Shown: positions 8,361 through 27,566 of the stretch, piece after piece
Layout: the number at the start of each line of letters is the position of its first letter
Position numbering within the stretch: the stretch's first letter is position 1
From: Streptomyces sp. 6-11-2
GTDB lineage: Bacteria; Actinomycetota; Actinomycetes; Streptomycetales; Streptomycetaceae
DNA length: 64,000 nucleotides
Assembly: GCF_006540305.1 (NCBI RefSeq)
Contig: NZ_BJOR01000001.1
Span: 4,650,001 to 4,714,000 of the forward strand
Reading direction: 5' to 3'
Translations under genes and position numbers: made by a program
The notes under the pieces: generated by a model
Databases searched by the model: none
What the model saw: only the letters and a program-made list of their open reading frames with translations
Told to the model about the DNA's origin: nothing

Positions 8361-11300
8361 CTCCGCGGTCTCGAAGGGACAGCGCCGGGTCGGGCCGGCG
8401 CAGGGTCAGTACCGCCGTGACGACGAGCGGCGCGGCGGCGACGGCCGCCAGCAGCAGGACCACCCGAGCGGCGGGCAGTTCGACCAGGACGGTCGGCAGC
8501 GGTTTCGCGGCCTGCCCGGTCAGTACGATCAGCGGGATCACCGTGCGGGCCAGTACGGTGCCCAGAACCACGCCGACCGCCAGCGCCAGGGCCACCAGCA
8601 CGCCCTGCTCGGCCGCGAGCGTCCGGGCCAGCTGGCGGCGCGGGGCGCCCATGGCACGCAGGAGGGCGAATTCGGCGTCCCGCTCCCTGCGGGCCCCGAC
8701 AGCCCCGACCACGAAGCCGACAGCGGCCAGCGCCGCCGCGGCCGCGGAAGCCGCGGTGAAGGCGGCCGCGGGCCCGGCGCCGAACGGGTCGTCGTGCAAC
8801 TGGGCGGCGATCTCGTCCCGCACGATCACTCGCGCCGGGTCGATGTCGGGCAGGGCCCGCAGGGCCGCGGCCACGGCCGCCGACCGGTGGGCGTCGGTGC
8901 GCAGCCACCACTCGGTGGGCGCGGCCCGGTCGCCGGACTGTGACTGGAGCAGCCGGTTGACCGACCGCAGGTCCATCAGCAGACCTCCGCCGTCGTGCGC
9001 GGCGTCCGGGGAACCGCCCTGATCGGCAGTGCCCGTGGTCGGCAGCGCCCGTACCGAACGCACGATCCGGACCGGAACGTTCTCGCCGCCGAAGGTCACG
9101 TCCACCCGCTGCCCCTCGCGTGCACCCGTGGATTCGAGGAAACGGTCGGTCGCCACGGCCGCGACCTCCGTCTGCGCGGGCTGCGCCGCCTGGAGCCGCA
9201 CGGTCACCGAGCCCGTCACCCAGGGCTGGTCGTGCGGCACGTAGCCGGTGCCGTAGGTGACGGTCAGCGGGCGGGTGGACGTCACGGCCGCCTTGGCCGG
9301 GGAGGTGCCGTTGTCGCCGTCGGGAGTGGAGGCGATGTTGTTGCCGATCGAGGTCGCCTTCCAGGCCGTCGGCGCACTCAGTCGCCGTACCGTCCCGTCG
9401 GCGCCGGTGGCGGTCACCTCGGAGACGGTGAGGCGGTGCCGCTCGGCGACGTCGACGGGCTGGTTGAGGGACAGATCGAGACCGATCAGGGTCAGGGGGC
9501 CCGCGTCCGCGGGGAGGGTCAGGTCCAGGGGGCGGGAGCGGCCGTCGGCGGGCAGCGTGCCCAGCGGCATGCGGTACGGGACTCCGCGACTGTCCTCGAC
9601 GGTGACTCCCATGTCCACCGGCATCCTCGTGCCGGAGCCGTGGATGTCTGCGGTCAGCCGCAGGCTGGCCGTCCCGGCGGGCAGCTTCAGCCCCGCCGTC
9701 GGGCTCTTGGGCGCGAGCCCCGCCAGCAGTGGCCGTACGGAATCGGACGCCAGGTCGGGGCGCATCAGCATCGTGTCCGCCGCGTTCACGGTGTCCAGCG
9801 CGAGCACGGTTGCGGCGCGGTTGCCGGACAGCGGCAGAGTGGTGCGGACGGCTGGGGCGGCGGCGCTCACGCGCGGGAGGGCCGCGTACTGCTCGGTGCG
9901 GCCGAGGTCCCCCTCCCCGGCGGCCAGTACGCGCACCGGCGCACCCGCCCGGAAGTCCGCCTGGTCGTCCTGCGAGCGGTCCCAGGAAGCTCCCTGACCG
10001 ATCGCCAGCATGCCCAGCGCGATGGCGAGTACGAGCAGCAGCACCGGCCCGGCCCCGCGCATCGGGCGGCGGCTGAACTGCCAGCCCGCCAGCGCGGCCG
10101 GCAGTCCGCGGCCGCCGGTCGCGCGCCGCTCGGCCAGCCGGGCCACCGGCGGCAGCAGCCGCAGGGTCAGCACCGTTCCGGCCAGCAGGGCCAGTGCGGG
10201 CGCGACGACCAGCAGCGGGTCGATGCCGAGCGCGCCCGTGAGGTCGCCGCCGACCGCGCCGGAGGGCTGCCCGTTCAGCTGCCAGTACGCCACACCGGCC
10301 ACCGCCAGCAGTCCCAGGTCCGCGCCGGCGCGCAGCGGCGCGGGCAGCGTACGGGCCCGCGAGCCGGTCGTGAACGACGAGGTCAGCGCGGGCAGCGTCA
10401 CCGCCATCGCGCAGCCCAGCGCCACGGCCGCCGCCACCAGCCAGACCCCTGGCCGCCCGGTCGCGGAGACGTCCGGGTGCAGTCCGATCCGGGCCAGGGC
10501 GCCCTGCTCGGCCAGCAGCCCGGTCAGCGGTCCCGCCAGCAGCGGCGCGCAGGCCACGGCGGGCACGGCGAGCAGCAGCGCCTCGGTGGCGGCGAGGCCG
10601 GCGATCCGGGCGCGGGAGCCGCCGCGGGCCCGCAGCAGGCGGGTCTCCCTGCTGCGTTCGGTGCTCAGCAGCCGGGCCACCAGCAGCAGCGCGTAGCCGG
10701 CGAGCAACGCCAGCTGGAGCACGGCGATCATCAGGGTGGAGCGGGCCACGAGCAGGGAGCGGTCGATCCGGTCCAGGACGGTGGGCAGCGAGGACGTGAC
10801 CTCCGGTGTGCCGCTCACCGCCGTGGACGTGCGCAGGGACGCGGCACTCTCGCGCACCGCGTCGCGCAGCGCTCCGATCCGTCCGGTCGCCAGCGTGGAG
10901 AAGTCCGCCGACGCCTGCCACGCGGTCTGTCCCGCGCTCACCCTGCCGCCGGTGAGGACGGCGGGGTCGGTCAGCAGCGGCCCGTACATCGTGAAGCCGA
11001 CCTTGCGGACGCCGCGGCCGCCCAGATCGTCCAGCCGCCAGTACGGCGCGTCGGCGCGGACGGGGCGGTAGAGCCCGGTGATCCGAATCTGGGCCTTCCG
11101 GCCGTCGAGGCGGTCGGTGAGGGTGAGCCGGGCGCCGGGCTTCAGCCCGAGGCGCTGCGCGGCGGTCTGCGGCAGCGCGACCTCGAGGTCACCCGTCGCC
11201 GTCTCGCCGGGGAGGCGTCCGGAGACGAGCCGCACCTGGGTGGGGTCGATCGCCGCGAGGTACGTCAGGTCCGGGTCGCCCGAGCGCTCCGCCGGGGGCC

Positions 11301-11634
11301 GCAGGGACAGGGGCAGGCCGTAGGGGCCGGAGCGCACCAGGGTGCGCACGGTGACCGGCAGTCCGTCGAAGGCCTTGCGGGCCTGCTCGCGTACGGCGGT
11401 GTCGGCGGCCGCGCGCTTCTCGGACGGTGTGTCGACGCGGACGACCAAGGTGGCGTCGGCGGCGTTGCGCGGGTCCCGCAGGGAGTGGCGCAGCGCCGCG
11501 TCGCCGATCGCGCCGGAGTAGGCGGTGAGTGTCGCCAGTACCGCCGTGGTCAGCAGCACCGTGAGCAACGCGGCTGCCAGCAGCAACCGGTGCGCCCGCG
11601 CACGCAGCAGGACGAATCCAGTGAACCCCGCCAC
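8353..11634 (-). CDS. very large FtsX-type ABC permease
   Basis: At 1093 residues this is the longest membrane protein here. An N-terminal helix (about 10-35) is followed by a roughly 270-residue extracellular domain, a block of helices around 290-560, a second large extracellular domain (about 570-960), and three C-terminal helices ending at RRPDPALSLRDRGGE. The permease core repeats the FtsX pattern twice. GTG 11634 is preceded by AGGGGGAG. It is the first gene of the three-gene exporter operon (permease, permease, ATPase). The extracellular domains could touch lipoproteins or cell-wall enzymes, as in MacB/FtsX systems, but nothing in the window names a partner. Confidence 0.88.
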   Translation of the reverse strand: MAGFTGFVLLRARAHRLLLAAALLTVLLTTAVLATLTAYSGAIGDAALRHSLRDPRNAADATLVVRVDTPSEKRAAADTAVREQARKAFDGLPVTVRTLVRSGPYGLPLSLRPPAERSGDPDLTYLAAIDPTQVRLVSGRLPGETATGDLEVALPQTAAQRLGLKPGARLTLTDRLDGRKAQIRITGLYRPVRADAPYWRLDDLGGRGVRKVGFTMYGPLLTDPAVLTGGRVSAGQTAWQASADFSTLATGRIGALRDAVRESAASLRTSTAVSGTPEVTSSLPTVLDRIDRSLLVARSTLMIAVLQLALLAGYALLLVARLLSTERSRETRLLRARGGSRARIAGLAATEALLLAVPAVACAPLLAGPLTGLLAEQGALARIGLHPDVSATGRPGVWLVAAAVALGCAMAVTLPALTSSFTTGSRARTLPAPLRAGADLGLLAVAGVAYWQLNGQPSGAVGGDLTGALGIDPLLVVAPALALLAGTVLTLRLLPPVARLAERRATGGRGLPAALAGWQFSRRPMRGAGPVLLLVLAIALGMLAIGQGASWDRSQDDQADFRAGAPVRVLAAGEGDLGRTEQYAALPRVSAAAPAVRTTLPLSGNRAATVLALDTVNAADTMLMRPDLASDSVRPLLAGLAPKSPTAGLKLPAGTASLRLTADIHGSGTRMPVDMGVTVEDSRGVPYRMPLGTLPADGRSRPLDLTLPADAGPLTLIGLDLSLNQPVDVAERHRLTVSEVTATGADGTVRRLSAPTAWKATSIGNNIASTPDGDNGTSPAKAAVTSTRPLTVTYGTGYVPHDQPWVTGSVTVRLQAAQPAQTEVAAVATDRFLESTGAREGQRVDVTFGGENVPVRIVRSVRALPTTGTADQGGSPDAAHDGGGLLMDLRSVNRLLQSQSGDRAAPTEWWLRTDAHRSAAVAAALRALPDIDPARVIVRDEIAAQLHDDPFGAGPAAAFTAASAAAAALAAVGFVVGAVGARRERDAEFALLRAMGAPRRQLARTLAAEQGVLVALALAVGVVLGTVLARTVIPLIVLTGQAAKPLPTVLVELPAARVVLLLAAVAAAPLVVTAVLTLRRPDPALSLRDRGGE

Positions 11635-12297: not shown

Positions 12298-13560
12298 CTA
12301 GCCACGCCTGATCGTGATCGTCGTCCAGGCGCCCACGTGCACGCGGTCGCCGTCCTGGAGGGGGACCGGCACGAAGGGCTGGATGGGGTCCTCCGAGCCG
12401 TTGACCGTGGTGCCGTTGGTCGAGTTCTGGTCGACCACCGCCCAGCTGCCGTCGGGCTGCTGGACCAGCACCGCGTGCTGGTGGGAGACGCCCGGGTCCT
12501 CCGGCGGGACCGACAGGTCGATGTCGGGGGTGTCGCCGGTGGAGTGCCGGCGGCGGCCGATGGTGACCTGGTTGCCGGTGAGCGTGCGCTGCTGCTCGGG
12601 CGAGTACGCGGGCAGGTTCAGACCCGCGGCCTCGGGGCCGGAGCGCTGCATCATCGCCATGAAGTAGTCGCGGTCCGGGCCGATCGTCGCCGTCCAGGTC
12701 GCGGGCTGCTGCGGCTGCTGCGGGAAGGCCGGTCCCGGCGGGGCCTGGGTGGCACCCGGCTGCGGGTAGCCGTAGCCGCCCGCCTGGCCGGGGCCGGGAC
12801 GGCCGGGGACGCCCGGACCGGAGGGGCCCGTGGACGACGGCGGGGAGATCACCCAGTCGTCGTCACCGCCGTGCGGCGGCCGGCCGGTCTCCTGCGGGAA
12901 CCCGGGCGGTGCCGGCGGGCCGGGCTGCTGGAACGCCTGCGGGGCACCACCGGGCGCTCCGGGGGCACCGGGCGGCGGCGGAACCGGCCGTGACGGGTCG
13001 CCGCCGAAGTTCGGCGGGCCGGGGCGGCCGGGGGGCTCGGTCCCGAAGTTCGGGGGGCCGGGGCGGCCGGGGGGCTCGGTCCCGAAGGGCGGGGCGTGCG
13101 GGATCGGCTCGGCGGGCCGGTTCACCTGGGACGGCCGGGAGCCCTGGTACTCGAACGTGTCGCCGCCGAAGGCCGGACCGGGCGGCTGCGGGAAACGCGG
13201 GCCGGGACCGGGACCGGGACCGGGACCGGGCGGCGCGGCCGGCGTGTACGAGGTCGCCGTGTTCGTCAGGAAGTTCCACCGGCACTCCTCGCAGAACGGC
13301 GCGCCGCCCTCACGGGGCGTACGGCACTGCGGGCAGAGCTCCGGCTCGGGGTTCGGTACGGCGGACAGGTGCGGGCGCCCACCGGGCACGCCGGGCGCAC
13401 CCGGCTGACCGGGACCGGCGGGCCCCGGCGCGGGCGGGAAGCCGTAGCCCCCGACCGGGGGCGGCGGGGGAGGCGGAGGCACGGCACCGGCCATGCGGTG
13501 ACCGCACACCTCGCACCAGTCGTCGGAACCCGACTGGTGTCCGTTCGGGCAGGTCGGCAT
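12298..13560 (-). CDS. FHA-domain protein with two zinc ribbons
   Basis: 420 residues. Two four-cysteine zinc ribbons open the protein: C4/H8 with C16-x2-C19, and C76-x2-C79 with C90-x2-C93. A 220-residue Pro/Gly-rich disordered linker with tandem repeats follows. A C-terminal FHA domain runs from about 332 to 418 with the phosphothreonine-binding signature GRRRHS, then VSHQHA and NSTNGT. FHA domains read Thr-phosphorylated partners; GarA/OdhI, the PknG targets in mycobacteria and corynebacteria, are FHA proteins. It is the last gene of the operon that begins with the GlnX-like gene. A GarA-like role is inference; the linker and ribbons are not GarA-like. Confidence 0.9.
   Translation of the reverse strand: MPTCPNGHQSGSDDWCEVCGHRMAGAVPPPPPPPPVGGYGFPPAPGPAGPGQPGAPGVPGGRPHLSAVPNPEPELCPQCRTPREGGAPFCEECRWNFLTNTATSYTPAAPPGPGPGPGPGPRFPQPPGPAFGGDTFEYQGSRPSQVNRPAEPIPHAPPFGTEPPGRPGPPNFGTEPPGRPGPPNFGGDPSRPVPPPPGAPGAPGGAPQAFQQPGPPAPPGFPQETGRPPHGGDDDWVISPPSSTGPSGPGVPGRPGPGQAGGYGYPQPGATQAPPGPAFPQQPQQPATWTATIGPDRDYFMAMMQRSGPEAAGLNLPAYSPEQQRTLTGNQVTIGRRRHSTGDTPDIDLSVPPEDPGVSHQHAVLVQQPDGSWAVVDQNSTNGTTVNGSEDPIQPFVPVPLQDGDRVHVGAWTTITIRRG
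13004..13090 (-). repeat. 39-bp tandem repeat inside the FHA gene
   Basis: Two 39-base units begin at 13021 and 13060, and a partial third lies at 13004-13020. They encode GTEPPGRPGPPNF repeated in frame. A separate run of six-base GGACCG repeats at about 13203-13228 encodes GPGP. Both are in the disordered linker and are prone to length change. Confidence 0.8.
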
Positions 13561-13653
13561 GTCGGCGCTTCCCCCTCTCCTTCTCCGGCCGGTGCGGCCG
13601 GATTTCTCCCACCCCGAGGGGTCGGGCTCGCTGTCCTGGGCGGTCTTCCCGTG

Positions 13654-15000
13654 TCACTTCTTCACGCGAACGGTCTTGGTGGACCGGGTTTCGAGAGTCA
13701 TCTCGTCGGCCTCGTCGACCTTCGCTTTCAGTCGCACAGTACCCGTCGCGGCGTCGACCACGTCCACCACCTTCGCAAGCAGTTTCGCAGTATCCGCGTT
13801 CCCCGAGGCTCCGGCGAGCTGAACAGCGCGGCCCAGCTTGGCCGTTGCTCCATCGAAATCGCCTGCTTTACGAAGGTCGAGGCCCTGCTGGATGGCCTGC
13901 GCCAGTTCGGCCTGCCCGGTGTAGTGCGCCACCTGCGGATTGATCGAGGTGGAGGCGGTCATGTCGTCGGTCCACACGGCCCGTACCAGGCCCTGGGCGC
14001 CGAGATTCTGCACCGTGCCGTCCGGTTTGGGCACCACCAGGGAGATCCGGGCGGCGAGCATCTCCTGCCCGATGCCGGCCGCGGGCACCTCCACACAGAG
14101 GTGGTAGTCGCGGGACTCGTCCCCCCAGGATCCGGTGGGATAGTCCCCGGCGCGCGGGCCCGCCTCGGCCCGGCGGTCGGTCAACTCCTCAACGGATGGG
14201 GCGACTTGCTTGACGAACTTGATGGTCGTGCCCACCGGCGTCCATACCCGCAGCCAGACGTCCGCGACCTCCTTGCCCATCGCCGTCTCCATCATCCGCC
14301 TGAAGTCGGCGGCCAGGCCCGCCGGATCGGCGACGATGTCGGCGGTGCCGAGCAGCGCGGAGGCGATCTGTGTGACTTCTTTCACTTCCCAGTCGGTGCC
14401 CACGCCCCGCGCGTCACATGTGAAGCGCCCCGCGCATGCGTCGAGTGTCCGCCGGAGGTCCTCGGGCGACTCGTGCTCGTTGCGGCCGTCGGTGAGCAGG
14501 ATCCCGTGCCGGATGGCGACGTCGGCCGAGGACAGCAGCCGGTCGGCCAGCCGCAGCCAGGTGCCGATGGCCGTGCCGCCGCCCGCGCTGAGCCTGCGCA
14601 GCGCCTGCTTGGCCTGGTCGCGGGTGGTCGCGTCGGCGACCGCGAGCCGGCCGCCGCCCGGATAGACCTCCTTGGCCACGTGCGTGCCGCCGATCACCGC
14701 GAAGTGCACACCGTCGCGCAGGGTGTCGATCGCGGCGGCCGTGGCGTCCCGGGCGTTGCGCATCTTGGTCGGCGGATAGTCCATCGAACCCGAGCAGTCG
14801 ACCATGATCGCCACCGCGGCGGACGGTCCCTGCCCGGGCGTGTACAGGTGCGGTGCCGCGACCGCGCTGCCGATCGTGCCGCCGCCGGTCGCGCTGACCG
14901 TGACGATCGAGTTGACCTCCCGGCCGCCCTCCGGCAGGTACTCGTTCTGGTACACGTCCACCGCGAACTGCGGCACGCTGGGCTTCGAGAAATTCGCCAT
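13654..15000 (-). CDS. vWA-domain protein (TerY-like)
   Basis: 448 residues. The von Willebrand A domain starts near residue 60. Its MIDAS metal site is VDCSGSMD (Asp68, Ser70, Ser72), with a Thr in GGTAIGTW and an Asp in LLTDGRNEHES completing the set. A beta-rich region and a short helical C-terminus follow. ATG 15000 is chosen because AGAGGGGGAT precedes it; an upstream in-frame start at 15117 lacks a ribosome site. No signal peptide is seen, so the protein is cytoplasmic. Its place between a PP2C phosphatase and an FHA protein, behind a kinase, recalls the TerY-phosphorylation triad (vWA, PP2C, kinase). Confidence 0.87.
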   Translation of the reverse strand: MANFSKPSVPQFAVDVYQNEYLPEGGREVNSIVTVSATGGGTIGSAVAAPHLYTPGQGPSAAVAIMVDCSGSMDYPPTKMRNARDATAAAIDTLRDGVHFAVIGGTHVAKEVYPGGGRLAVADATTRDQAKQALRRLSAGGGTAIGTWLRLADRLLSSADVAIRHGILLTDGRNEHESPEDLRRTLDACAGRFTCDARGVGTDWEVKEVTQIASALLGTADIVADPAGLAADFRRMMETAMGKEVADVWLRVWTPVGTTIKFVKQVAPSVEELTDRRAEAGPRAGDYPTGSWGDESRDYHLCVEVPAAGIGQEMLAARISLVVPKPDGTVQNLGAQGLVRAVWTDDMTASTSINPQVAHYTGQAELAQAIQQGLDLRKAGDFDGATAKLGRAVQLAGASGNADTAKLLAKVVDVVDAATGTVRLKAKVDEADEMTLETRSTKTVRVKK

Positions 15001-15136
15001 GCTGTCCCAGATCCCCCTCTGGACCCCGTGAACGGGGACGACGACTGTGGACGGACCGGCCCCCGCCGGCCCGCGGAGCTTCCCCGCGCCGAGGGCTCGG
15101 CCGGGGGGTCTCGTCACGCGCCCCCGCGTACGTCCC

Positions 15137-16840
15137 TCAGGCCGATCCTGCCCCCTGCGGCGTGGCCGGGAACGGCAGGACGGCCACTGTTACGTTGTCG
15201 TGGCCCCCGCCGTCCAGGGCGTGGCCGACCAGGACCCGGGCGCTGTGCAGCGGGCGCACGGCGGCGTCGAGGGGGACGGCCTCGGCCATCTCCCGGGCCG
15301 TCTCGGCGTAGTTCCACAGCCCGTCCGTGCACACCACGACCACTCCCGGCCGGTCCGGCTTGAAGGAGGCGGTGTGCGGCTCCAGTTCGTAGGCGTCCGC
15401 GCCGAGCCAGCCGGTGATCGCGTGGGCGCGCTCGTCGGCGTACGCCTCCGCCTCGGACATCAGGCCCGCGGAGACCATCTGCGCGGCCCACGAGTCGTCC
15501 TCGGTGAGCCGGGCCGGGGGCGCGCCGCGGTCCACCGGGACCCAGTAGGCGCGGCTGTCGCCGACCCAGCCGACGACCAGCAGTCCGGAGGTGACCACCG
15601 CGCCGACGAACGTGCAGGCCGGCGCGTTCTGGTGGGCGGAGTGCCGGCCGGCCGGCGCGGGCTCCCCGGCGAGCGCGTCGACCGCCTGCGCGGCGGCGAC
15701 GATCGCGTCGTGCATGGCCTGCTGCGGGTGCGTGCCGCGGGGCAGCGCGGCCAGCAGCGACTCGCTCGCCGCTCGGGAGGCGGCCAGGGAGGCGTCGTCG
15801 GGGCGGGTCGCGGAGGACACGCCGTCGCAGACGATCGCCGCGAGGGCGGGAGAGCCGTCGGGCAGCGCGGTACGGCCGAGGGCGAAGGCGTCCTCGTTGC
15901 GGTGGTGGCGCAGGCCGCGGTCGCTGACGGCGGCGATCGGGCCCGACTCCTGTTCCATGTGGTCGCGTTCGCGCGGCTGGGCGTGCCCGCAGTTCTCGCA
16001 GTAGCCGTCGCTGTCGACCCGGCCGGCCCGGCAGGCCACGCACACCGTGGTGGCCTCGCCCGGGGCGCCGTCGCCCGGGGTGCCCTCGGCCGGAGCGGCG
16101 GTGTCGGAGTCGGCGGGCACGCGCGGGTCCGGTGCCTGCAGCGGGTACTCGTCGGGCTCCGCCGGCCGGTCGAACCGCACGCCCGAGGCGGACGCCCCTT
16201 GCTGCTGTGGCTGTCCCTGTGGCTGCGGACCCTGGCCTTGCGGCTGCGGGTGCTGCTGTGGCTGTGTTTGCGCCTGTCCTTGTCCTTGCGGCTGCTGCTG
16301 AACTGCGGCCTGTGCGTGGGCCTGCGGCTGCGGCTGCGGCTGCGGCCGGCCCGTCGCCCGGGCCTCGGCTGGTGGCTGTGGCTGCGGCTGCGGTTGCGGC
16401 TGGGGTTGACCCGTCTGTGGTTGCTGCGGGGACTGCGCCACCGGATGCGGCCGCTGCTGGACCGCCGCCTGCACCGCCGCCTGGGCCTGCGCCTGGGACT
16501 GGGCTTGAGCCTGCGCCTGTGCCTGCCGTGCCGGTGCCGGCAGCGGGGAGCCGCTCGAGTCCGTGCCCGGCAGGTCCGTCGGCAGATGCAGCCGTGGCGG
16601 GGCCTCGGAGGCGTCCGGGTGCGGTGCGCGCGGCCATACGGCGTCGTCGGCACGCTCGCCGGGGCCGGCCGGGCGCGGCACCGCGCCGCGGTCCATGGTG
16701 AGCGTCGGCGTGTCGCCCGGTCCCTCGGCGGCCGCGGACAGGTCGTACCCGCACGCGCCGCAGAAGCGGTCACCCGATTCGAGCGGCTCCGCACAGCTCG
16801 GGCACTTCGGCAGCGCGGCCTGCTGGTGCATCTGCGACAT
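15137..16840 (-). CDS. PP2C-family Ser/Thr phosphatase with two zinc ribbons and Gln/Pro-rich linker
   Basis: About 567 residues. Zinc ribbon 1 is C13-x2-C16 with C27-x2-C30; ribbon 2 is C267-x2-C270 with C281-x2-C284. Between them, residues 105-215 are a low-complexity Gln/Pro/Ala segment. The C-terminal PP2C domain (about 300-567) has the metal-binding and catalytic motifs RNEDAF, AIVCDGVSS, GWVGDSRAYW, VVCTDGLWNY and GHDNVTVAVL. It should remove phosphates placed by the neighbouring PknG-like kinase. ATG 16840 lies next to the kinase stop (TAG at 16844-16846), with GTGGGTG as ribosome site inside the kinase gene, so the two are translationally coupled. Confidence 0.92.
   Translation of the reverse strand: MSQMHQQAALPKCPSCAEPLESGDRFCGACGYDLSAAAEGPGDTPTLTMDRGAVPRPAGPGERADDAVWPRAPHPDASEAPPRLHLPTDLPGTDSSGSPLPAPARQAQAQAQAQSQAQAQAAVQAAVQQRPHPVAQSPQQPQTGQPQPQPQPQPQPPAEARATGRPQPQPQPQAHAQAAVQQQPQGQGQAQTQPQQHPQPQGQGPQPQGQPQQQGASASGVRFDRPAEPDEYPLQAPDPRVPADSDTAAPAEGTPGDGAPGEATTVCVACRAGRVDSDGYCENCGHAQPRERDHMEQESGPIAAVSDRGLRHHRNEDAFALGRTALPDGSPALAAIVCDGVSSATRPDDASLAASRAASESLLAALPRGTHPQQAMHDAIVAAAQAVDALAGEPAPAGRHSAHQNAPACTFVGAVVTSGLLVVGWVGDSRAYWVPVDRGAPPARLTEDDSWAAQMVSAGLMSEAEAYADERAHAITGWLGADAYELEPHTASFKPDRPGVVVVCTDGLWNYAETAREMAEAVPLDAAVRPLHSARVLVGHALDGGGHDNVTVAVLPFPATPQGAGSA
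16195..16520 (-). repeat. CAG/CCG-type low-complexity coding repeat
   Basis: Imperfect short repeats of Gln, Pro and Ala codons encode the linker of the phosphatase. The pattern drifts from QAQAQAQ to PQPQPQP blocks. It is coding throughout, in frame, and is a likely site of replication slippage. Confidence 0.75.
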
Positions 16841-16843
16841 CAA

Positions 16844-19393
16844 CTACACCCACGTCCGGGGGCGGTAACGGTTGGCACGTTCCACCAGGTCGATCCTCTC
16901 CTCGCCACCGGGCGCCAGCCGGGCCAGCGTGCGGTACGAACGCTCCAGGCCGAAGCGGAGTCCCCGCTCGTCCAGATCGCTCCCGAGCAGCACCCGCCGG
17001 GCGGCCGGGTCGGTGGCCCGGCCCCCGGAGAGTACCCAGTCCAGGGCGCAGCCGAGGACTTCCGCCGACAACAGCTCGCGCCGCGCCGGGTCCAGACCGT
17101 AGGCCTGAAGTGCCTCGACCTGCCCGGAGGCGGCCGTCAGATCGTCCAGGAACGGCGTGTCGGACGCCGCCGCCGTACGGTGCCTCAGCCGTGCCCGTAC
17201 GGCCGCCACGCGCGCCGCCGTGTAGTGGATCGAGGACTCCGGAACGGACTCCAGGGTCCGTACCGCGCCGGGCCGTTCGCCGGTGGCGAGCTGCACGCGG
17301 GCCAGCCCGAACGCGGCGCTGACCTGGCTCGGGTCGGTCGACCACACCAGGCGGTAGTACTCGGCGGCGTTGTCGAGCTGGCCGAGCACCTCGGCGCACA
17401 GACCGAGCGCCAGCTTCGGCGCGACCTCACCGGGGAAGGCGTCGTAGACCGCGTCGAAGGCGAGGGCCGCCTCCTCGTGGTCGCCGGTGACCAGGGAGGC
17501 CACGCCCCGGTACCAGACGACCCGCCAGTCGTCCGGGTTCCGCTGCTCCAGTTGGCGCAGGACCTCCAGCGCGGTGGCCGGTTCGCCGGTCTCCAGCCGG
17601 GCCCTGACCTGGCGCAGCCGGGTCTCGGCCGACTGCGTGGGCGCCGCCGCGAGCGCGTGCGCCAGTTCCCCGGGCGCGGACGTCAACAGGCCTGCCAGAA
17701 AACCCGCGTTCGGGTCACTCGGGTCGACGTGGGGGACCGGCAGGGCGAGCGCGGCGGCGGGCGTGTCGACGGGCTTGACGAGCGCCGGGAGAGCCGGGAG
17801 AGCCGGGAGAGCCGGGGCGTTCGGCGTGTCCGGGACGCCGTGGCCGTGCGCGGTACCGGCCGCGAGGGCCGGGGCCGATCCGCGCGAGCGTGTCGCCCGC
17901 GCTCCCAGCCGGGACACGTCCCCGTCCAGCCTCGGGAACAACTCCGTGTCCGTCACCCGCAGTTCCGGGCCGAACAGCGTCGAAAGAGCCGGCCGGGCCC
18001 GGCCGGTCTGGAGGGACACGACCTCCCGCAGCACGCCCGTGAGCTGCTCCGCCATCTCCTGCGCCGAGGCGAACCGGCGGGCCGGGTCGGGGTCGGTGGC
18101 ACGGACCAGCAGGCGGTAGAAGGACTCGTACTGGCGGAAGACCTCGATGTTGTCGGGGTCGGGCAGGGAGTCCGCGAAGACGTTCGTGTAGCCCTGGAAG
18201 TCGAAGGTGAGGACGGCGAGCGTACGGCCCACCGTGTACAGGTCGCTGGCCACCGACGGGCCGACCTCGGCGACCTCGGGCGCCTGGTAGCCGACCGTGC
18301 CGTAGATGGCCGACTCGTCGTCGTCCATACGGCGCACCGCGCCCATGTCGATCAGCTTGAGCTGGTCCTCGGTCTGGATCGCGTTGTCGACCTTGAAGTC
18401 GCAGTACAGCAGGTTGCGGCTGTGCAGATGACCGAGCGCCTCCAGCGCCTCGATCCCGTACGCGCAGGCCTGCTCCACCGGCAGCGGGTCGCGTCTGCTC
18501 TCCGGGGTGCGACGGGAGTTGGCGATCTCCTTCAGCGACTTGCCGCCGACGTACTCCATCACGATGTAGCCGTCGAGGGAGCCGGTCCGCTGGTCGAGGT
18601 GCTCGACGAAGTTGTAGATCCGCACGATGTTGGCGTGCTCGATCTCCGCCAGGAACCGCCGCTCGGAGATCGCCGCCGCCATCGCGTCCTGGTCGCCGGT
18701 GTCCAGCAGGCCCTTGAGGACCACCCAGCGGTCGGACACGGCCCGGTCCACGGCGAGGTAGATCCAGCCCAGGCCGCCGTGCGCCAGACAGCCCACGACC
18801 TCGTACTGGCCGTGGACGATGTCCCCGGCCCTCAGCTTGGGCACGAAGGAGTACGGGTGCCCGCACTTGGTGCAGAAGCCCTCCGTACGGCCCGGGCGGT
18901 CCCCCCGCGCGCGCCCGACCGGCGCACCGCAGTCCGAGCGCGAGCAGAACCGCTTGCGCTCCGGCACCTCGGGGTTCTCCAGCACCATCGAACGCGGGTC
19001 CGGCCGCGGCACCTGCGGCACCTGCACCAGACCCGCGCCCAGCCGGCCGCGGCCGGAGGAGCCCGTCGTGGAGCCGGAGCTGCGCACCGACACCGACCGG
19101 CCGGTCGCCTTGCCCGACAGCGAGCGCGAGAGCCGTCCCGACACCGAGCGGCGCGATTTCGACGACTGCGACGACGTACGGGAACTGCGGGCGCTGGAGG
19201 CCGAGCCGCCGCTGCCCACCGAACCCCGCGAGTCCCCGCCGCCGGTGACGCCGGTGGGCGGCGAGCCCACCATGCCGGTCGCCGAGACGACCGGCGCGAG
19301 ACCGCACGTGTCGCAGTACAGCTCGCCGCCGCCGACGTCCTCGTACGACCCGCCGCAGCCCGGCCGCTGACAGGTCTGCCCCGCCTGACTCAT
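16844..19393 (-). CDS. pknG: PknG-like serine/threonine protein kinase with two zinc ribbons and TPR region
   Basis: 849 residues in PknG order: cysteine modules, kinase, TPR-like tail. Ribbon 1 uses C8, C13, C27, C30; a basic Ser-rich linker spans 50-115; ribbon 2 uses C150, C155, C174, C177. The kinase domain (about 197-460) has Lys in VVLKGL (about 227), catalytic loop YCDFKVDN (330-337) and DMG in place of DFG, all PknG-like. About 590-849 is helical and repeat-rich (AALAFDAVYDAFPG, LDNAAEYYRLVW). In mycobacteria PknG phosphorylates the FHA protein GarA to control glutamate and TCA metabolism. ATG 19393 follows AGGGGGA; the coiled-coil gene ends eight bases upstream. Confidence 0.92.
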   Translation of the reverse strand: MSQAGQTCQRPGCGGSYEDVGGGELYCDTCGLAPVVSATGMVGSPPTGVTGGGDSRGSVGSGGSASSARSSRTSSQSSKSRRSVSGRLSRSLSGKATGRSVSVRSSGSTTGSSGRGRLGAGLVQVPQVPRPDPRSMVLENPEVPERKRFCSRSDCGAPVGRARGDRPGRTEGFCTKCGHPYSFVPKLRAGDIVHGQYEVVGCLAHGGLGWIYLAVDRAVSDRWVVLKGLLDTGDQDAMAAAISERRFLAEIEHANIVRIYNFVEHLDQRTGSLDGYIVMEYVGGKSLKEIANSRRTPESRRDPLPVEQACAYGIEALEALGHLHSRNLLYCDFKVDNAIQTEDQLKLIDMGAVRRMDDDESAIYGTVGYQAPEVAEVGPSVASDLYTVGRTLAVLTFDFQGYTNVFADSLPDPDNIEVFRQYESFYRLLVRATDPDPARRFASAQEMAEQLTGVLREVVSLQTGRARPALSTLFGPELRVTDTELFPRLDGDVSRLGARATRSRGSAPALAAGTAHGHGVPDTPNAPALPALPALPALVKPVDTPAAALALPVPHVDPSDPNAGFLAGLLTSAPGELAHALAAAPTQSAETRLRQVRARLETGEPATALEVLRQLEQRNPDDWRVVWYRGVASLVTGDHEEAALAFDAVYDAFPGEVAPKLALGLCAEVLGQLDNAAEYYRLVWSTDPSQVSAAFGLARVQLATGERPGAVRTLESVPESSIHYTAARVAAVRARLRHRTAAASDTPFLDDLTAASGQVEALQAYGLDPARRELLSAEVLGCALDWVLSGGRATDPAARRVLLGSDLDERGLRFGLERSYRTLARLAPGGEERIDLVERANRYRPRTWV

Positions 19394-19401
19394 GACTCCC
19401 C

Positions 19402-20709
19402 CTACCGTCCCTCGGGCCCGCCCTGCTCCGGCACCCGCGAGCCGCCGAGCGACTCGGCCGCCGCCTGCTGGTAGCGCAGCACGGCCTGTTCGGCCACCCG
19501 CAGGTCGCAGGGCGCGCTCCACAGCATGCGGCGCGCCGCGTCGTACCGCTCGACCAGCAGCGGGTCCTCCGCCAGGCCGTGCCGGGCGACCTTCGCCTTG
19601 TACGCGTCCAGCCGCCCGCGCAGCTCGGCACGGACCGCCAGCGGCGCGGTGACCGCCGTCAACGACTCGCGGGCGCGCTGAAGTTCGTCCTCCGCCTTCT
19701 GCTCCAGCGACTCCAGCAGCGGCGACAGCCGGTGCCACCGGGCCTGCCTGCGGTACTCGGCGGCCGTCGCCAGCTGCTCCTGAAGGGCGGTCGGCGGACC
19801 GCTGACCACCGGTACCTCCGTGGCGGCGATCTTCGCCAGCACCTCACCGCGCGCGGTGCGCGCCTCGGCGAGCGTGCGGTCCGCGCGCGAGAGCACGTCC
19901 CGCAGCCTGATCAGCCGCTGCTCGGCATCCTGCCGGACCCCGAGCACGGCGTCGATCTCCCGGCGCACCTCGTCCAGCGCCCGCGCCTCCCGGTCGTACA
20001 CCGTGGTGTCCGGCCGTCCGCCGCCCGGCGCCGAACTGCCCTGCGCGGGCACCCAGAAGGCGAGCGGATCGGAGATCACCTCCGCGCGCAGCCTCGTCAG
20101 CGTGCGCGTGACGCGCTCCAGGTCGTCGCCCGCCGGATGCTCGCCGGGGCGGACGCCGACCGAGTGCGCGAGCCGGCGGGTGCGCTGGAGCTCCGCGGCC
20201 AGCAGATCGATCCGCGCGGGCAGCGCCGACCACACCGCGTCGGCGGCGACCACCATGTCCAGACCGGTCGCGTACAGCTCGTTCATCCGGTCCACCAGCG
20301 TGGCCAGGGAGAAGCTCTGGCTGAGCCGGCCCGGACCGGGCAGGGCGGGCGCGCCCGCGGCGGCCGCGCCGGGGACGGTGACGGACTCGCCGCGCAGCAG
20401 CCCGGTCAGCTCCACCAGGTCCTCGCGGCTGGACCAGCGGCGGCGGGCGCGGATCTCACGGGCGGTGCGCAGCGCGCCGCTGTAGGCGTCGAAGTACGCC
20501 CACAGCAGCGTGATCGACGCCTCGGTGGCCGCCCAGCGCTCCTCGGTGACGCCGGTCAGCTCGGCGCCTTCCAGGAGTCTGCGGCCCGCGTGGTCCTGAA
20601 GGGCGAGCAGCGAGGTCTCGATGGCCTCGTGCTCCGCGCCGAGCCGCGCCAGCGCACGGTCCACCTCGTCCCGGTCCATGACGGGCCCGGCGGGGTCCGT
20701 GACGCCCAT
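19402..20709 (-). CDS. coiled-coil protein between kinase and GlnH-like gene
   Basis: A 435-residue soluble protein of unknown family. It is almost entirely helical, with heptad-like stretches at about 25-110 and 215-400 (for example ALDEVRREIDAVLGVRQDAE and a later EQLATAAEYRRQ). No catalytic motif, signal peptide or membrane helix is seen. ATG 20709 has an excellent GAGAGGTGAT ribosome site. It lies between the extracellular sensor genes and the PknG-like kinase in a continuous operon. A scaffold or adaptor linking the membrane sensor to the kinase is plausible but is inference; the classical mycobacterial glnX-glnH-pknG cluster has no such gene. Confidence 0.8.
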   Translation of the reverse strand: MGVTDPAGPVMDRDEVDRALARLGAEHEAIETSLLALQDHAGRRLLEGAELTGVTEERWAATEASITLLWAYFDAYSGALRTAREIRARRRWSSREDLVELTGLLRGESVTVPGAAAAGAPALPGPGRLSQSFSLATLVDRMNELYATGLDMVVAADAVWSALPARIDLLAAELQRTRRLAHSVGVRPGEHPAGDDLERVTRTLTRLRAEVISDPLAFWVPAQGSSAPGGGRPDTTVYDREARALDEVRREIDAVLGVRQDAEQRLIRLRDVLSRADRTLAEARTARGEVLAKIAATEVPVVSGPPTALQEQLATAAEYRRQARWHRLSPLLESLEQKAEDELQRARESLTAVTAPLAVRAELRGRLDAYKAKVARHGLAEDPLLVERYDAARRMLWSAPCDLRVAEQAVLRYQQAAAESLGGSRVPEQGGPEGR

Positions 20710-20789
20710 CGATCACCTCTCGCTGCTGCGTGTCGCCTGTGCACTGCCGGTTCTGCTGCTCCGTCGGTGCCGCGCCGGCCGGCGACCGG

Positions 20790-21806
20790 TCACCGGTAGC
20801 TCGGCGTCGGCGCGGTGGCCGACGGTGAGTCCTTACCCAGCGTGGCGGACAGCCACGTCCCGTACGACGCCTTCCAGCCTCCGTCCTTGCGGTAGTTCTC
20901 CAGTGTCCGGTTGACCCGGCGGACCAGATCGTCGGCACCGAGCTTCATGGCCACACCGTAGAACTCCTTGGTGAAGGAGGCGCCCTTCAAGGCCACCGTG
21001 GGGTCCTGCGCGGCCTGGCTTGCGGCGAGCGCGCCGTCCGTCACCACCGCGTCCACCTCGCCGAGTTGGAGCCGCACCAGGCAGTCCAGCTGGTTGGGGA
21101 CGGTGGTGGTGATGTCGGTGGACGCGGGGAGCCTGCCGTCCCTGGTGTCGGCGGACAGGTGGTCGTAGGCCGTGGAGCCGGTCGCCGAGCAGATCCTCTT
21201 CCCGGCGAGGGAGCCGTCGTAGCCGGTGATGCCGGAGGTCTTGGGGGCCAGGACCTGCTGGCCGGTCAGGAAGTAGGGGGCGGAGAACGCCACCTGCTTC
21301 AGCCGGTCGCAGGTGATGGTCATGGTGCGCACCACCATGTCCACCCGGCCGCTGCGGATCGCGGGTATCCGCTCGTTGGTGGGGATGGCCTTGAACTGGA
21401 CCTTGTTCGCGTCGCCGAGGATGTCCTCGGCGATGCGGTGCACGAGGTCGATGTCGAAGCCCTCCAGCGCGCCGGAGGCGTTGTTCGGGTTGCGGTAGCC
21501 CCAGCGGTAGCTGTTCTGGTCGACGCCGACCGACAGATAGCCGCGCGACCGGATGGCGCTCAGCGTGGGGCCGCCGGCGCCGGACGGGGACGGGCTCAGG
21601 TTCTGCGCCTGGCTGTCCTGGCAGTTGTCCGCCTTGGACTGCGTGCCCTGAGCGGCTCGCGAGCCGCTTGTGGCGGGGCCGCCGGCGCCCTGCGGCTGGG
21701 TGCGGGGCAGCAGCAGGACGAAGGCCAGTGCCAGGGCGCAGACGGCCGCCATCGCGCCGACACCGCCCCAGCCCTTCAGGCCGGCCCGCAGACGTCGTGC
21801 TCGCAT
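20790..21806 (-). CDS. glnH: GlnH-like extracellular amino-acid-binding protein, membrane-anchored
   Basis: 338 residues. An N-terminal helix (about 15-34) follows a basic RARRLRAG start and has no lipobox Cys after it, so the protein is probably held by an uncleaved signal anchor. From about residue 70 it is a type II periplasmic-binding fold of the amino-acid family (LSVGVDQNSYRWGYRN, GFDIDLVHRIAEDI, FSAPYFLTGQQVL). GlnH in mycobacteria binds Asp/Glu and signals through GlnX to PknG. ATG 21806 is preceded by AAAGGGGG; a GTG at 21845 overlapping the upstream stop is an alternative. No permease or importer ATPase is adjacent, which supports sensing rather than uptake. Confidence 0.87.
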   Translation of the reverse strand: MRARRLRAGLKGWGGVGAMAAVCALALAFVLLLPRTQPQGAGGPATSGSRAAQGTQSKADNCQDSQAQNLSPSPSGAGGPTLSAIRSRGYLSVGVDQNSYRWGYRNPNNASGALEGFDIDLVHRIAEDILGDANKVQFKAIPTNERIPAIRSGRVDMVVRTMTITCDRLKQVAFSAPYFLTGQQVLAPKTSGITGYDGSLAGKRICSATGSTAYDHLSADTRDGRLPASTDITTTVPNQLDCLVRLQLGEVDAVVTDGALAASQAAQDPTVALKGASFTKEFYGVAMKLGADDLVRRVNRTLENYRKDGGWKASYGTWLSATLGKDSPSATAPTPSYR

Positions 21807-21841
21807 CGCCACGCCCCCTTTCACCGCTGCCACGCTCCCTT

Positions 21842-23290
21842 TCACCGGTACTCCGAAAGCCTGCGCCCGATGCCCAGCACCGCGCCGGCCGCGCCGAACA
21901 CCGCGAGCACCGCGGAGCCGACCGGCAGGCCCGTCATCGCGGCCCGGCCGTCCTCCGCGGCCTGCCGGAACCGGCCCGTCTCATGGGTGAGCGCCGACGC
22001 GAGGGAGGCGTCGACGTTGTCGAAGCACTCACCCGTCGACTCCGTCCGGTCCTTGGCGGTGGTGCCGATGACCCGGTCGCGTGCCTTCTGGTAGTCGCCG
22101 GAGTCGTTGGCCTGGCGGGCCAGTTCGTGTCGTTGCTTCCACACCTTCATCGACTCGTTCGCCGTGTCCACCGGCTTTCTGCCCCCCGGGTCCTCGGCGA
22201 GGGCGCCGGCCCGGGACAGCGTCCGGGCGAGGGTGCCGAGTTCCTGGTCGTACGCCCAGTCGTAGGCGTCCATGACCGTGCCGTCCTTCAGCGTCTTGGT
22301 CTCCGCGCCGCGGCTGACGAGGGTCAGGTTCTCGTCGCTGCGTGCCTTGAGGGAGGCGATACGGGCGTCGTGCAGCACGTTCAGCGAGCGCACGCCGTGC
22401 GTGTAGGAGCCGTTGAGTCCCGCGCGCGCGACGCTGTGGCCGATCACCAGCCACAGCAGGACGACGGTGGTGGCGGCGGTCGCGGCGACCAGGCCGTGGT
22501 TCAGCACCCGGTTCGTGCGCCGGTAGTTGCGCCGCTGGGCCCAGGCGAGGGCGGCCAGGGCGACGACGCCGAGGGCGATCGCGGCCCACGGGTACGGTGT
22601 CGCGTCCCCGTAGTCGGAGCGGAGCCGCTGGTTCTCCTTCTGGTACAGGTCCTCGGCCGCCGGGAGCATCTCGTCCTGCATGGTCTCGTTGGCGGCGCGC
22701 AGGTACGCGCCGCCCACCGGGAAGCCCTGGCGGTTGTTGGCGCGGGCGGACTCGACCAGGCCCTTGTAGCGCGGCAGGAGCTCGTTGAGCTTGGTGATGG
22801 TGGTCGCGGAGGGGCTGCCGGGGGCGGAGTTGGCGGCGGCGGTGACCAGCTTGGCGGCGGCCGTGCGGACATCGGACTCGTAGCGCTCGCGGGTGGCCGT
22901 CGTCTCCTGGAGACCGGCCAGGTAGCCGCTGGTCGCCATGGTGTTGGCGTCGGCGAGCGAGCGGTAGATGTCCGCCGCGTCGGAGCTGAGCGGCTGGCTG
23001 CGGTGCAGGACGTCGTCGGCGGCCGAGGAGCGGTCGGTGGCCTGGAGGGCGGTGACGGCGCCGAAGGCCAGGACGAGAAGGGCGATGACGGCGCCGATGA
23101 CGCGGAGGCGGCCGGGCTCCGTGGTGGCGGCGGCGCGCAGGCGTTCGGCGCCCTCCGCGAAGGCGGTGCGGCGCGGGGGCGCGGGGGGCCGCGCGGCGGG
23201 AGCGGGGACCGCGGGCTGCGGCGGAACCGCCGGCAGGGTGGGCAGGCCCGGCCCCGGCGGTGCCGAACTGCTCGTCGGCGGTTGTGTCAC
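21842..23290 (-). CDS. glnX: GlnX-like four-helix membrane sensor
   Basis: 482 residues. A Pro/Ala-rich cytoplasmic N-terminus of about 60 residues leads into TM1 (about 64-84). A helical extracellular domain of about 150 residues follows, then TM2 and TM3 close together (about 232-285), a second helical extracellular domain, and TM4 (about 455-475). Two extracellular helical bundles between paired helices is the GlnX plan; GlnX passes the ligand state of GlnH to PknG. The start GTG 23290 follows GGGGGAGG. It is first in a seven-gene operon running to the FHA gene, and the next start (GTG 21845) may overlap its stop. Confidence 0.82.
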   Translation of the reverse strand: MTQPPTSSSAPPGPGLPTLPAVPPQPAVPAPAARPPAPPRRTAFAEGAERLRAAATTEPGRLRVIGAVIALLVLAFGAVTALQATDRSSAADDVLHRSQPLSSDAADIYRSLADANTMATSGYLAGLQETTATRERYESDVRTAAAKLVTAAANSAPGSPSATTITKLNELLPRYKGLVESARANNRQGFPVGGAYLRAANETMQDEMLPAAEDLYQKENQRLRSDYGDATPYPWAAIALGVVALAALAWAQRRNYRRTNRVLNHGLVAATAATTVVLLWLVIGHSVARAGLNGSYTHGVRSLNVLHDARIASLKARSDENLTLVSRGAETKTLKDGTVMDAYDWAYDQELGTLARTLSRAGALAEDPGGRKPVDTANESMKVWKQRHELARQANDSGDYQKARDRVIGTTAKDRTESTGECFDNVDASLASALTHETGRFRQAAEDGRAAMTGLPVGSAVLAVFGAAGAVLGIGRRLSEYR

Positions 23291-23489: not shown

Positions 23490-24461
23490 TCACTGTTCGA
23501 AGTGGGCCCGCACCCTTTCCCGGGCCGCCGCCGGCGCTCCCACGTGGTCCAGGCCCAGGAGGGCCGCGCCCAGGACCGGACGGGCCGTGACGACCCGCGG
23601 GACCGCTTTGGGGGCGCGGGCGGCGAGGAGGTCGCGTACGGCGTCGTCGAGCCGGGGGTGGCGGGCGGCGAGGACACTGCCGCCGAGGAGGACCGGTGTC
23701 TCCTCGTCGAGCAGACCGAGGCGGGTCAGGGCGACCGTGGCCATGGCCACCACCTCCTCGGCCTGGCGGTCGACGATCGTGCGGGCGATCGGATCGCCCT
23801 GGTCGGCCGTGGTGAACAGGACCGGGGCCAGTTCGTGGCGGCGGTTGTGGTCGACGTGCCGCAGGTGCAGCGCCTCGATGAGGGCGTACACGGAGGCCAG
23901 CCCGAAGTGGGCGGGGAGGGTGCGGGACAGGGCGGTGGGCGCGCCGCGGCCGTCCTCCGCGCGGGCCGCGTACCACAGGGCCTCCTCCGCCAGGCCCCAG
24001 CCGCCGCCCCAGTCGCCGGAGACGCGGCCGAGCGCGGGGAAGCGCGCGGTGCGGCCGTCCGGGAGCATGCCGACGCAGTTGATGCCGGCGCCGCAGACGA
24101 CCGCGACCCCGCGCGGTTCGGCCACGCCCGCGCGCAGGATCGCGAACGTGTCGTTGCGGACCTCCACCGTCGTGCCCCACGCGCGCGCGTGCAGGGCGGA
24201 CGCCAACTGCTCCTCCTCCACCGGGAGATCGGCGTTGGCCAGGCATGCCGAGACATGGCCGGCGGCGGTGACGCCGGCCTGCGCGTACGCCCGCCGGACC
24301 GTTTCCTCCAGGGCGTCCACCGCGGTCCCGACACCCACGGCCGGCGGCCGGAACCCGCCGCCGCGGGCCGTGGCGAGGACGTGCCCGTCGGCCGCCACCA
24401 CCGCCACGTCGGTCTTGCTGTTGCCCGCGTCGATGGCGAGGACGCTTGCGGTCAGGCCCAC
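23490..24461 (-). CDS. csnK: BadF/BadG-type sugar kinase, probable glucosamine/N-acetylglucosamine kinase
   Basis: 323 residues of the BadF/BadG/BcrA ATPase family, to which bacterial N-acetylglucosamine kinases belong. The phosphate-1 loop is AIDAGNSKTD near residue 9. Phosphate-2 lies around VVCGAGINCVG, and an adenosine-motif GDWGGGWGLAEEAL follows. The GTG start at 24461 sits ten bases inside the end of the GH4 gene with GGGAG upstream, so it is coupled. Its place in the operon fits csnK of S. coelicolor, the kinase that phosphorylates glucosamine released from imported chitosan oligosaccharides. The enzyme would act in the cytoplasm. Confidence 0.88.
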   Translation of the reverse strand: MGLTASVLAIDAGNSKTDVAVVAADGHVLATARGGGFRPPAVGVGTAVDALEETVRRAYAQAGVTAAGHVSACLANADLPVEEEQLASALHARAWGTTVEVRNDTFAILRAGVAEPRGVAVVCGAGINCVGMLPDGRTARFPALGRVSGDWGGGWGLAEEALWYAARAEDGRGAPTALSRTLPAHFGLASVYALIEALHLRHVDHNRRHELAPVLFTTADQGDPIARTIVDRQAEEVVAMATVALTRLGLLDEETPVLLGGSVLAARHPRLDDAVRDLLAARAPKAVPRVVTARPVLGAALLGLDHVGAPAAARERVRAHFEQ

Positions 24462-25717: not shown

Positions 25718-25722
25718 GCTGT

Positions 25723-26616
25723 TCAACCCTTCACTCCGGTGAGTGTGACGCCCTCGACGAACGCCTTCTGGGCGAAGAAGAACACGAGGATCACTGGGGC
25801 CATGACCAGAACGGTCGCGGCCATGGTGAGGTTCCAGTCGGTGTGGTGGGCGCCCTTGAAGGACTCCAGTCCGTAGGACAGGGTCCAGGCGCCCGGGTTC
25901 TCCGAGGCGTAGATCTGCGGGCCGAAGTAGTCGTTCCAGGCGTAGAAGAACTGGAAGAGGGCGACGGCCGCGAGACCGGGTCTGGCCATGGGGACGACGA
26001 CCTTCAGCAGGGTGCGCAGCTCGCCGCAGCCGTCGACCCTCGCCGCGTCCAGGTACTCGTTCGGAATGGTCGTCAGGAACTGCCGCAGCAGGAAGACGGA
26101 GAACGCGTCGCCGAACGCCATCGGGATGATCAGCGGCCACAGCGTGCCGGACAGGTCCAGCTGCTTGGCCCAGAACAGGTACATCGGGATGATGATCACC
26201 TGCGGGGGCAGCATCATCATCGAGATCACCAGCATGAGCGACAGGTTGCGGCCCCGGAAGCGGAACTTCGCCAGCGCGTACGCCACGGGCAGCGAGGACG
26301 CGACCGTCAGGACCGTGCCGAGACCGGCGTAGACCAGCGTGTTCCGCCACCAGGTCAGGAAGCCCGGGGTGTCGAGGACCCTCTTGTAGTTGCCCCACTC
26401 CCAGGTGTGCGGGACCAGGTCGCGGCTGAGGGCCTGGCTGTCGCTCATCAGCGAGGTCAGCAGGACGAACACGAAGGGCAGGACGAAGAACAGCGCGGCC
26501 GCCACGCCCAGCGAGTGGACCGCGATCCACTCCAGCACCGCCCTGCGGCGGGCCGTGCGCTCGGCGGGGGAGGGCCGTGTCTTCGACCCCACCGGCTTGT
26601 CGAGCACTTGGGCCAT
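25723..26616 (-). CDS. csnG: sugar ABC transporter permease (MalG type)
   Basis: 297 residues with six predicted transmembrane helices. The family-specific EAA loop reads LDAARVDGCGELRTLLKVVVPMARPG (about residues 190-215; abbreviated as EAA-G motif with Gly at the turn), the site that docks the ATPase. The short cytoplasmic N-terminus is basic. It is the partner of the MalF-type permease two bases upstream. No ATPase gene is in the operon, which is normal for Streptomyces carbohydrate importers served by the shared MsiK ATPase. Start ATG 26616. Confidence 0.9.
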   Translation of the reverse strand: MAQVLDKPVGSKTRPSPAERTARRRAVLEWIAVHSLGVAAALFFVLPFVFVLLTSLMSDSQALSRDLVPHTWEWGNYKRVLDTPGFLTWWRNTLVYAGLGTVLTVASSLPVAYALAKFRFRGRNLSLMLVISMMMLPPQVIIIPMYLFWAKQLDLSGTLWPLIIPMAFGDAFSVFLLRQFLTTIPNEYLDAARVDGCGELRTLLKVVVPMARPGLAAVALFQFFYAWNDYFGPQIYASENPGAWTLSYGLESFKGAHHTDWNLTMAATVLVMAPVILVFFFAQKAFVEGVTLTGVKG

Positions 26617-26618
26617 CG

Positions 26619-27560: not shown

Positions 27561-27566
27561 GCGCGC

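Follow-up and report, generated by a model that had tools for sequence, protein, structure and literature searches.

The window analysed here is a stretch of 64,000 nucleotides from the 8.7 Mb genome of Streptomyces sp. 6-11-2 (contig NZ_BJOR01000001.1, positions 4,650,001 to 4,714,000). At positions 12298-23290 it holds seven adjacent minus-strand genes that code, in the order of transcription, for a GlnX-family membrane protein, a GlnH-like amino-acid-binding protein, an all-helical protein termed CC, the kinase PknG, a PP2C phosphatase, a vWA protein and an FHA protein (Table 1). An initial annotation had already recognized this row and its strand, and our examination confirms it with corrected gene limits: those of the PP2C gene replace an ORF at 15114-16754 that lies in a different frame. 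To judge by the sequence, PknG most likely starts at the ATG at 19393; the vWA gene most likely starts at the ATG at 15000 rather than the GTG at 15117, and in a predicted model of the longer form the first 47 residues have a predicted local distance difference test (pLDDT) score below 50. The residue numbers of the vWA protein used below (T477, S479, T480 and T482) are counted from that GTG. GlnX and GlnH overlap by 4 bases, and the gaps that follow measure 80 (GlnH-CC), 8 (CC-PknG), 3 (PknG-PP2C), 136 (PP2C-vWA; 19 with the GTG start) and 93 bases (vWA-FHA); three of the six junctions are below ten bases after correction, in line with the several short or overlapping gaps first described.

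Table 1. The seven genes of the cluster, in order of transcription (positions in the window)
Product	Position	Strand	Remarks
GlnX-family four-helix membrane transducer	21842..23290	-	482 aa, GTG start; NF058618 and four hydrophobic regions
GlnH-like amino-acid-binding protein with N-terminal membrane segment	20790..21845	-	351 aa; Pfam SBP_bac_3, nearest PDB entry 6h1u
All-helical CC protein, without known family	19402..20709	-	predicted model, pLDDT 92
PknG: N-terminal zinc-ribbon pattern (C8, C13, C27, C30), rubredoxin, kinase, TPR	16844..19393	-	849 aa; PF16919, PF00069, PF16918
PP2C phosphatase with two zinc-ribbon patterns ahead of the catalytic domain	15137..16840	-	567 aa; Pfam PP2C_2, Zn_Ribbon_1
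ArnB-like vWA protein: vWA, beta-sandwich, C-terminal helical domain and tail DEMTLETRSTKTVR	13654..15000	-	
FHA protein: two N-terminal zinc-ribbon patterns, Pro/Gly-rich linker, C-terminal FHA domain	12298..13560	-	420 aa

This seven-gene block occurs in many soil actinobacteria. The 80 nearest PknG loci are the best 80 of 569 confirmed relatives and are all named Streptomyces, so that this sample leans to close kin; in 75 of them all seven genes stand in the same order and on the same strand, and the remaining five (L082, L084, L107, L125 and L129; L, G and f numbers denote our loci, genomes and families) lie on short contigs with one or two end genes missing. We then considered 60 wider loci that were chosen to cover families before their neighbours were seen (L159 comes from another class, and two are second Streptomyces copies). 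In this neighbourhood search across actinobacteria, which the initial annotation had proposed as a check, all seven genes with a full vWA gene were found together in 21 of the 60. The GlnX-GlnH pair lies at the 5' end in ten of these 21, at the 3' end in another ten and on the opposite strand in one, always within the cluster. L161 has the seven-gene set with the vWA gene as a fragment, and several wider loci are partial, L160 and L186 being cut within 1.5 kb after PknG. A PknG of family f3 scores 1282 bits against 2pzi (named PknG, the M. tuberculosis structure), which marks f3 as mycobacteria-like. One of the 16 f3 loci has all seven genes, 12 are limited to GlnX, GlnH and PknG and three to PknG, and in f93, another family of the order, all seven were present in each of the 5 loci fetched, out of 12 f93 genomes with a VWA_3_C match. 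Across the class, 118 of the 315 genomes have an above-cut-off match to the PknG rubredoxin model PF16919. A PknG rubredoxin match is found no more than 12 kb away from 106 of the 110 above-cut-off GlnX matches and from 73 of the 91 VWA_3_C matches; the 18 VWA_3_C outliers are mostly on contigs without a listed PknG match, three being on the same contig at a distance of at least 1.8 Mb. A PF16919 match accompanies all 105 genomes with above-cut-off GlnX and 79 of the 81 with VWA_3_C, which itself occurs in 95 of the 99 genomes of the order.

The cluster is also lost jointly. Within the genus (35 genomes, the present one included), G434 and G462 are without PknG, GlnX and VWA_3_C alike. In the draft genome G316 only the two ends of PknG still give a match and its kinase part is missing, and the GlnX, GlnH and vWA genes are broken into fragments in several frames; good matches remain for CC, PP2C and the FHA domain. 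The GarA/OdhI model finds a strong match in all 35 genomes (E 1.0e-53 or better; the ETTS motif was checked in the present genome), including those devoid of the cluster, and retention of GarA is therefore independent of it.

The membrane protein had initially been taken for GlnX, with a protein unrelated to GlnX named as a finding that would tell against the proposed circuit; the score of the NCBIfam GlnX family (NF058618, 501 bits; cut-off 250) bears out the identification and excludes the latter. It has four hydrophobic regions and is a family member rather than a strict equivalog, as the model 'protein kinase G-activating protein GlnX' (NF041460) gives 179.6 bits against a cut-off of 780. 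The assignment of GlnH likewise holds, its nearest solved structure being the mycobacterial GlnH 6h1u (E 8e-48) alongside a match to Pfam SBP_bac_3. The protein begins with a single hydrophobic segment in which no lipobox was seen on inspection by eye. No amino-acid permease was seen adjoining it, and importer genes at 25.7-29.1 kb (two BPD_transp_1 permeases and one SBP_bac_1 protein) look like sugar uptake, which agrees with the anchored binding protein without an importer described at the outset. When positions are mapped manually onto 6h1u, the equivalents of Arg147 and Thr162 of the Asp/Glu pocket are retained, and that of Trp232 is Gln. At this last position all 80 Streptomyces rows have Gln and 13 of the 14 three-gene rows have Trp, and 10 of the 21 long-type rows have Tyr; because it thus differs between locus types, the ligand of GlnH may differ as well. 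CC shows no Pfam or NCBIfam family above cut-off; its model is almost entirely helix and finds no match in the PDB at E<=0.001.

The kinase has the composition expected of PknG from such operons, namely kinase and TPR domains with a rubredoxin (outside corynebacteria), and its best solved match is 2pzi; the catalytic residues are identical in all 115 aligned loci. Ahead of the rubredoxin it carries the zinc-ribbon pattern and, between the two, a Ser-rich stretch. All 80 Streptomyces rows carry the four cysteines of this ribbon; the 21 long rows all carry the first three, and 16 of them the fourth. The ribbon was not found in the f3 three-gene rows, and the three-gene locus L175 keeps one. The PP2C protein matches Pfam PP2C_2 (45 bits) and Zn_Ribbon_1 (28 bits), and the FHA protein matches Pfam FHA (60 bits); their metal-binding aspartates and phosphothreonine-binding residues, respectively, are kept in the aligned loci, a few gaps or single exchanges aside. 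In the seven-gene loci at least one ribbon, by Cys pattern only, precedes the domain in 21 of 21 PP2C and 20 of 21 FHA proteins. The initial equation of the FHA protein with GarA must be given up: it has no ETTS motif and scores 20 bits with the OdhI model (cut-off 200), as against 190 bits for the genome's own GarA. This GarA (L003, C1:6053225-6053626) combines SSETTSTIS with an FHA domain and lies 1.38 Mb from the nearer cluster edge. It, too, has an N-terminal zinc-ribbon pattern, CTRCGNRNAQNSRFCSNCG, ahead of the ETTS. A TagH-type protein of type VI secretion was also considered for the FHA gene and rejected (TIGR03354, 36 bits; cut-off 120.25).

Residues of the metal-ion-dependent adhesion site (MIDAS) of the vWA protein are identical in all 97 aligned rows. 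The vWA protein of one seven-gene locus agrees with the solved structure 4FX5 in 433 of 433 residues, and the vWA protein of the window is an orthologue of 4FX5. The predicted model of the latter protein gives a full-length fold match to the archaeal ArnB and reproduces the three-domain ArnB layout of vWA, beta-sandwich and C-terminal helical domain; 4fx5 and ArnB are the best full-length matches, in a comparison that did not directly include TerY. ArnB belongs with the zinc-finger FHA protein ArnA to the archaellum regulatory network of Sulfolobus, a nutrient-dependent phospho-switch with the kinase ArnC and the phosphatase PP2A (PMC6509490, PMC12852372, PMC7472852). At its C-terminal end the vWA protein reads DEMTLETRSTKTVRVKK in the GTG numbering. 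Among the 21 of 22 aligned rows that reach this tail, S479 and T482 are invariant, T480 is kept in 17 and T477 in 16; different tails occur in L188 (where the row ends earlier), L163, L196, L198 and L199. The Streptomyces tail resembles the GarA/OdhI peptide SDEVTVETTSVFRADFL, which has been used as a PknG substrate (PMC8546545), and T477 lines up with the ETTS of GarA. We regard it as a candidate phospho-tail.

The ribbon of PknG tends to go with the vWA gene. In 58 of the 60 wider loci that were scored, the PknG ribbon and a downstream vWA gene agree in 50 (31 with both, 19 with neither) and disagree in 8; the Fisher p of 4.6e-8 takes no account of kinship, ribbons were judged from the pattern and by eye, and some of the vWA matches are fragments (L161, L173, L195 and L197, of which L195 is cut at its 5' end). 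In L163, L198 and L199, for which no PP2C or FHA gene was found, the ribbon still accompanies vWA. In a PknG tree, the PknGs of the three-gene and solo loci of f3 group together as a clade that is sister to the two f3 seven-gene PknGs included (L149, L203) and lies within the seven-gene clade. The approximately unbiased (AU) test rejects a clade of 43 long-type rows excluding the 16 f3 rows (p 0.0001); it was run on a quick tree for a group named after a tree had been seen, and the 43 rows include the three-gene L175 and L194. Two more, separate cases of the three-gene form are L175 and L194. With the f3 PknGs nested in this way, the three-gene operon known from mycobacteria-like bacteria looks, from its sequences, like a derived, cut-down form of the seven-gene block.

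Several additional PknG loci were noted in passing. A second cassette is present in some Streptomyces: at L198:6675-12067 a PknG-like but divergent kinase (rubredoxin 50 bits) stands with a vWA protein that carries a zinc ribbon at its C-terminus and with a protein containing a trypsin-like domain; the kinase and vWA protein of this cassette recur in L199, by HMM only. In L145, L148 and L150 the 20 kb that were read contain a PknG copy and neither GlnX nor GlnH, genome G508 has four PknG matches, one being in a full seven-gene cluster (L149), and the divergent PknG loci L188 and L191 stand between two GlnX-GlnH pairs of opposite orientation. Flanking the cluster in the window, genes for an ABC ATPase and two large FtsX-like permease proteins follow 3' on the same strand (4592-11634), and on the 5' side (23490-30216) lie genes for a BadF-type kinase, a family 4 glycosidase, two permeases, a binding protein and a ROK regulator, which look like a sugar uptake set.

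We hold it an even call whether the seven genes form, with the mechanism in full, one nutrient-sensing phospho-switch. We favour this reading because the cluster is conserved and is kept together even when rearranged, is lost jointly, and retains its active-site, MIDAS and FHA residues; the predicted ArnB fold, the 4FX5 identity, the invariant S479 and T482, the agreement of ribbon and vWA, and the tree with its AU test point the same way. By orthology, GlnH would bind an extracellular amino acid and signal via GlnX to PknG; the genetic link between the three is published for mycobacteria and C. glutamicum, where contact of GlnX with the TPR part of PknG is only proposed (PMC6069109, PMC9769921, PMC8546545). 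The targets of PknG would be threonines of the ArnB-like vWA protein, in its tail and its C-terminal helical domain, and the zinc-ribbon FHA protein, loosely held via its ribbon as in ArnA-ArnB, would clamp onto these phosphothreonines until PP2C resets the switch. The vWA protein would act as the hub, for which the zinc ribbons of PknG, PP2C and FHA may be docking tags, as their co-occurrence with vWA suggests. GarA, encoded elsewhere, would be a second, separate target of PknG, and in the three-gene operon the GarA branch would have survived the loss of both the switch and the ribbon of PknG. Who phosphorylates whom, the docking by ribbons and the output are the parts that we infer.

Several observations weigh against this proposal. 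The vWA protein shares 14% identity with ArnB, and in sequence profile searches the unrelated vWA proteins 4cn8 (53.5 bits) and 9c4f (48.9) outscore ArnB (39.8). The three-domain fold is widespread (PMC12852372, section 9) and thus does not by itself show FHA binding. The phosphatase is a PP2C here and PP2A in archaea, and we do not claim membership in the Arn system. Other families have substitutions at T477 (Ala in L180, L184, L185, L187 and L190; Ser in L189 and L192; Val in L149), and the likeness of the tail to the GarA peptide is therefore a lead only; outside Streptomyces, just 17 of the 36 vWA ORFs, which include fragments, have the strict tail motif. The discordant loci comprise ribbons without vWA (L175, L179, L191) and vWA where the ribbon was not found (L189, L192, L195, L196, L197), and co-loss on the tree, with hand-coded states, gives four independent pairs the same way, none opposite and one flat (sign test p 0.125). 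CC may be dispensable, since L168, L173, L174, L176 and L178 have the other six genes without it. Finally, at L201 (7435-11585) and L202 the PP2C, vWA and FHA genes stand as a trio and the 20 kb that were read gave no PknG match, although both genomes have PknG loci elsewhere; the search there covered PknG matches, leaving room for other kinases nearby.

The last point bears on whether two adjoining units of unrelated function are held together merely by general synteny, which we consider improbable. L201 and L202, along with the 12 of 16 f3 loci that have no trio, favour such a view; they also bear out in part the regular separation of FHA, vWA and PP2C genes from sensor and kinase genes that the initial annotation had named as counting against its own reading. 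Yet the junctions around PknG are only 8 and 3 bases, reshuffled gene orders still keep the genes together, VWA_3_C adjoins PknG in several families, and loss and decay are joint. It is possible, if on balance unlikely, that GarA stays the main PknG target in Streptomyces and that PP2C, vWA and FHA only tune PknG, the FHA protein docking on autophosphorylated PknG and PP2C dephosphorylating PknG or GarA. The genome indeed encodes an ETTS-bearing GarA, the Ser-rich stretch lies between ribbon and rubredoxin, and mycobacterial PknG recruits its FHA substrate by a phosphorylated N-terminal region (PMC8546545). Against this stand the strong conservation of the vWA tail and the ribbon's association with vWA in the loci where PP2C and FHA were not found; the GarA-type matches that remain in two PknG-less Streptomyces genomes also speak against it, though they are compatible with it all the same. 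Very improbable, in our estimate, is a TerY-P-type triad of vWA, PP2C and kinase acting in metal or phage stress with an amino-acid sensor added. The same three domain classes do adjoin here and zinc ribbons are present, but the kinase ends in C-terminal TPRs without the C-terminal zinc ribbon and the vWA protein is ArnB-like, so that the TerY parallel drawn initially is not supported either. Moreover, the scanned neighbours are FtsX-type ABC and sugar genes, and PADLOC, which may hold no TerY-P model, gave generic kinase matches only.

With a chance that we place somewhat short of even, the phospho-switch may extend into a wider history: the ancestral actinobacterial PknG system would have been a sensor-driven switch of ArnA-ArnB type on a vWA hub with ribbon docking tags, mycobacterial PknG-GarA would be its remnant after loss of the hub, and archaeal starvation control and bacterial amino-acid sensing would share an FHA-vWA device. 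If true, GarA would be joined by a second PknG target in Streptomyces, one of the main sources of antibiotics; 4FX5, a solved structure without an assigned function, would be placed in a nutrient-sensing operon; mycobacterial PknG would appear as a reduced system; and the bacterial PknG field would be linked to the archaeal Arn field, which no paper that we found connects.

Among known systems, the TerY-P triad (TerY-like vWA, PP2C, and a kinase fused C-terminally to a zinc ribbon; PMC11090510) resembles the cluster in its adjoining vWA, PP2C and kinase genes and differs in that ribbon, absent here, in its neighbours, apparently in its vWA architecture, and in lacking the FHA and sensor genes. 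From the wider writer-eraser-reader circuit proposed initially, the conserved cluster of sensor, kinase, phosphatase and FHA genes, which exceeds the published three-gene operon, stands; the parallels to GarA and TerY find no support. In PpkA-PppA-Fha, a kinase, a PP2C and an FHA protein serve as writer, eraser and reader. The cluster shares this combination with that threonine phosphorylation pathway of type VI secretion (PMC5995506), but its FHA protein reaches 36 of the 120 bits for TagH, and the scanned neighbours showed no secretion genes, no genome-wide search having been made for them. With GlnH-GlnX-PknG-GarA/OdhI of mycobacteria and C. glutamicum (PMC6069109, PMC9769921, PMC8546545) it has in common a clustered orthologous sensor, transducer and kinase, and an ETTS-bearing GarA in the genome; it departs from the mycobacterial operon and pathway by four extra genes, an extra N-terminal PknG zinc ribbon, a Gln in GlnH in place of the ligand-contacting Trp, and a cluster FHA protein that is not GarA. 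As compared with ArnA-ArnB, the cluster is bacterial, includes a membrane sensor, has ribbons on the kinase and phosphatase too, has a phospho-dependence that is predicted, and shows the low identity to ArnB given above. Common to both are a tripartite vWA protein adjoining a zinc-finger-type FHA protein (here a ribbon by Cys pattern), a Ser/Thr kinase with TPR-like repeats, a phosphatase and a nutrient input.

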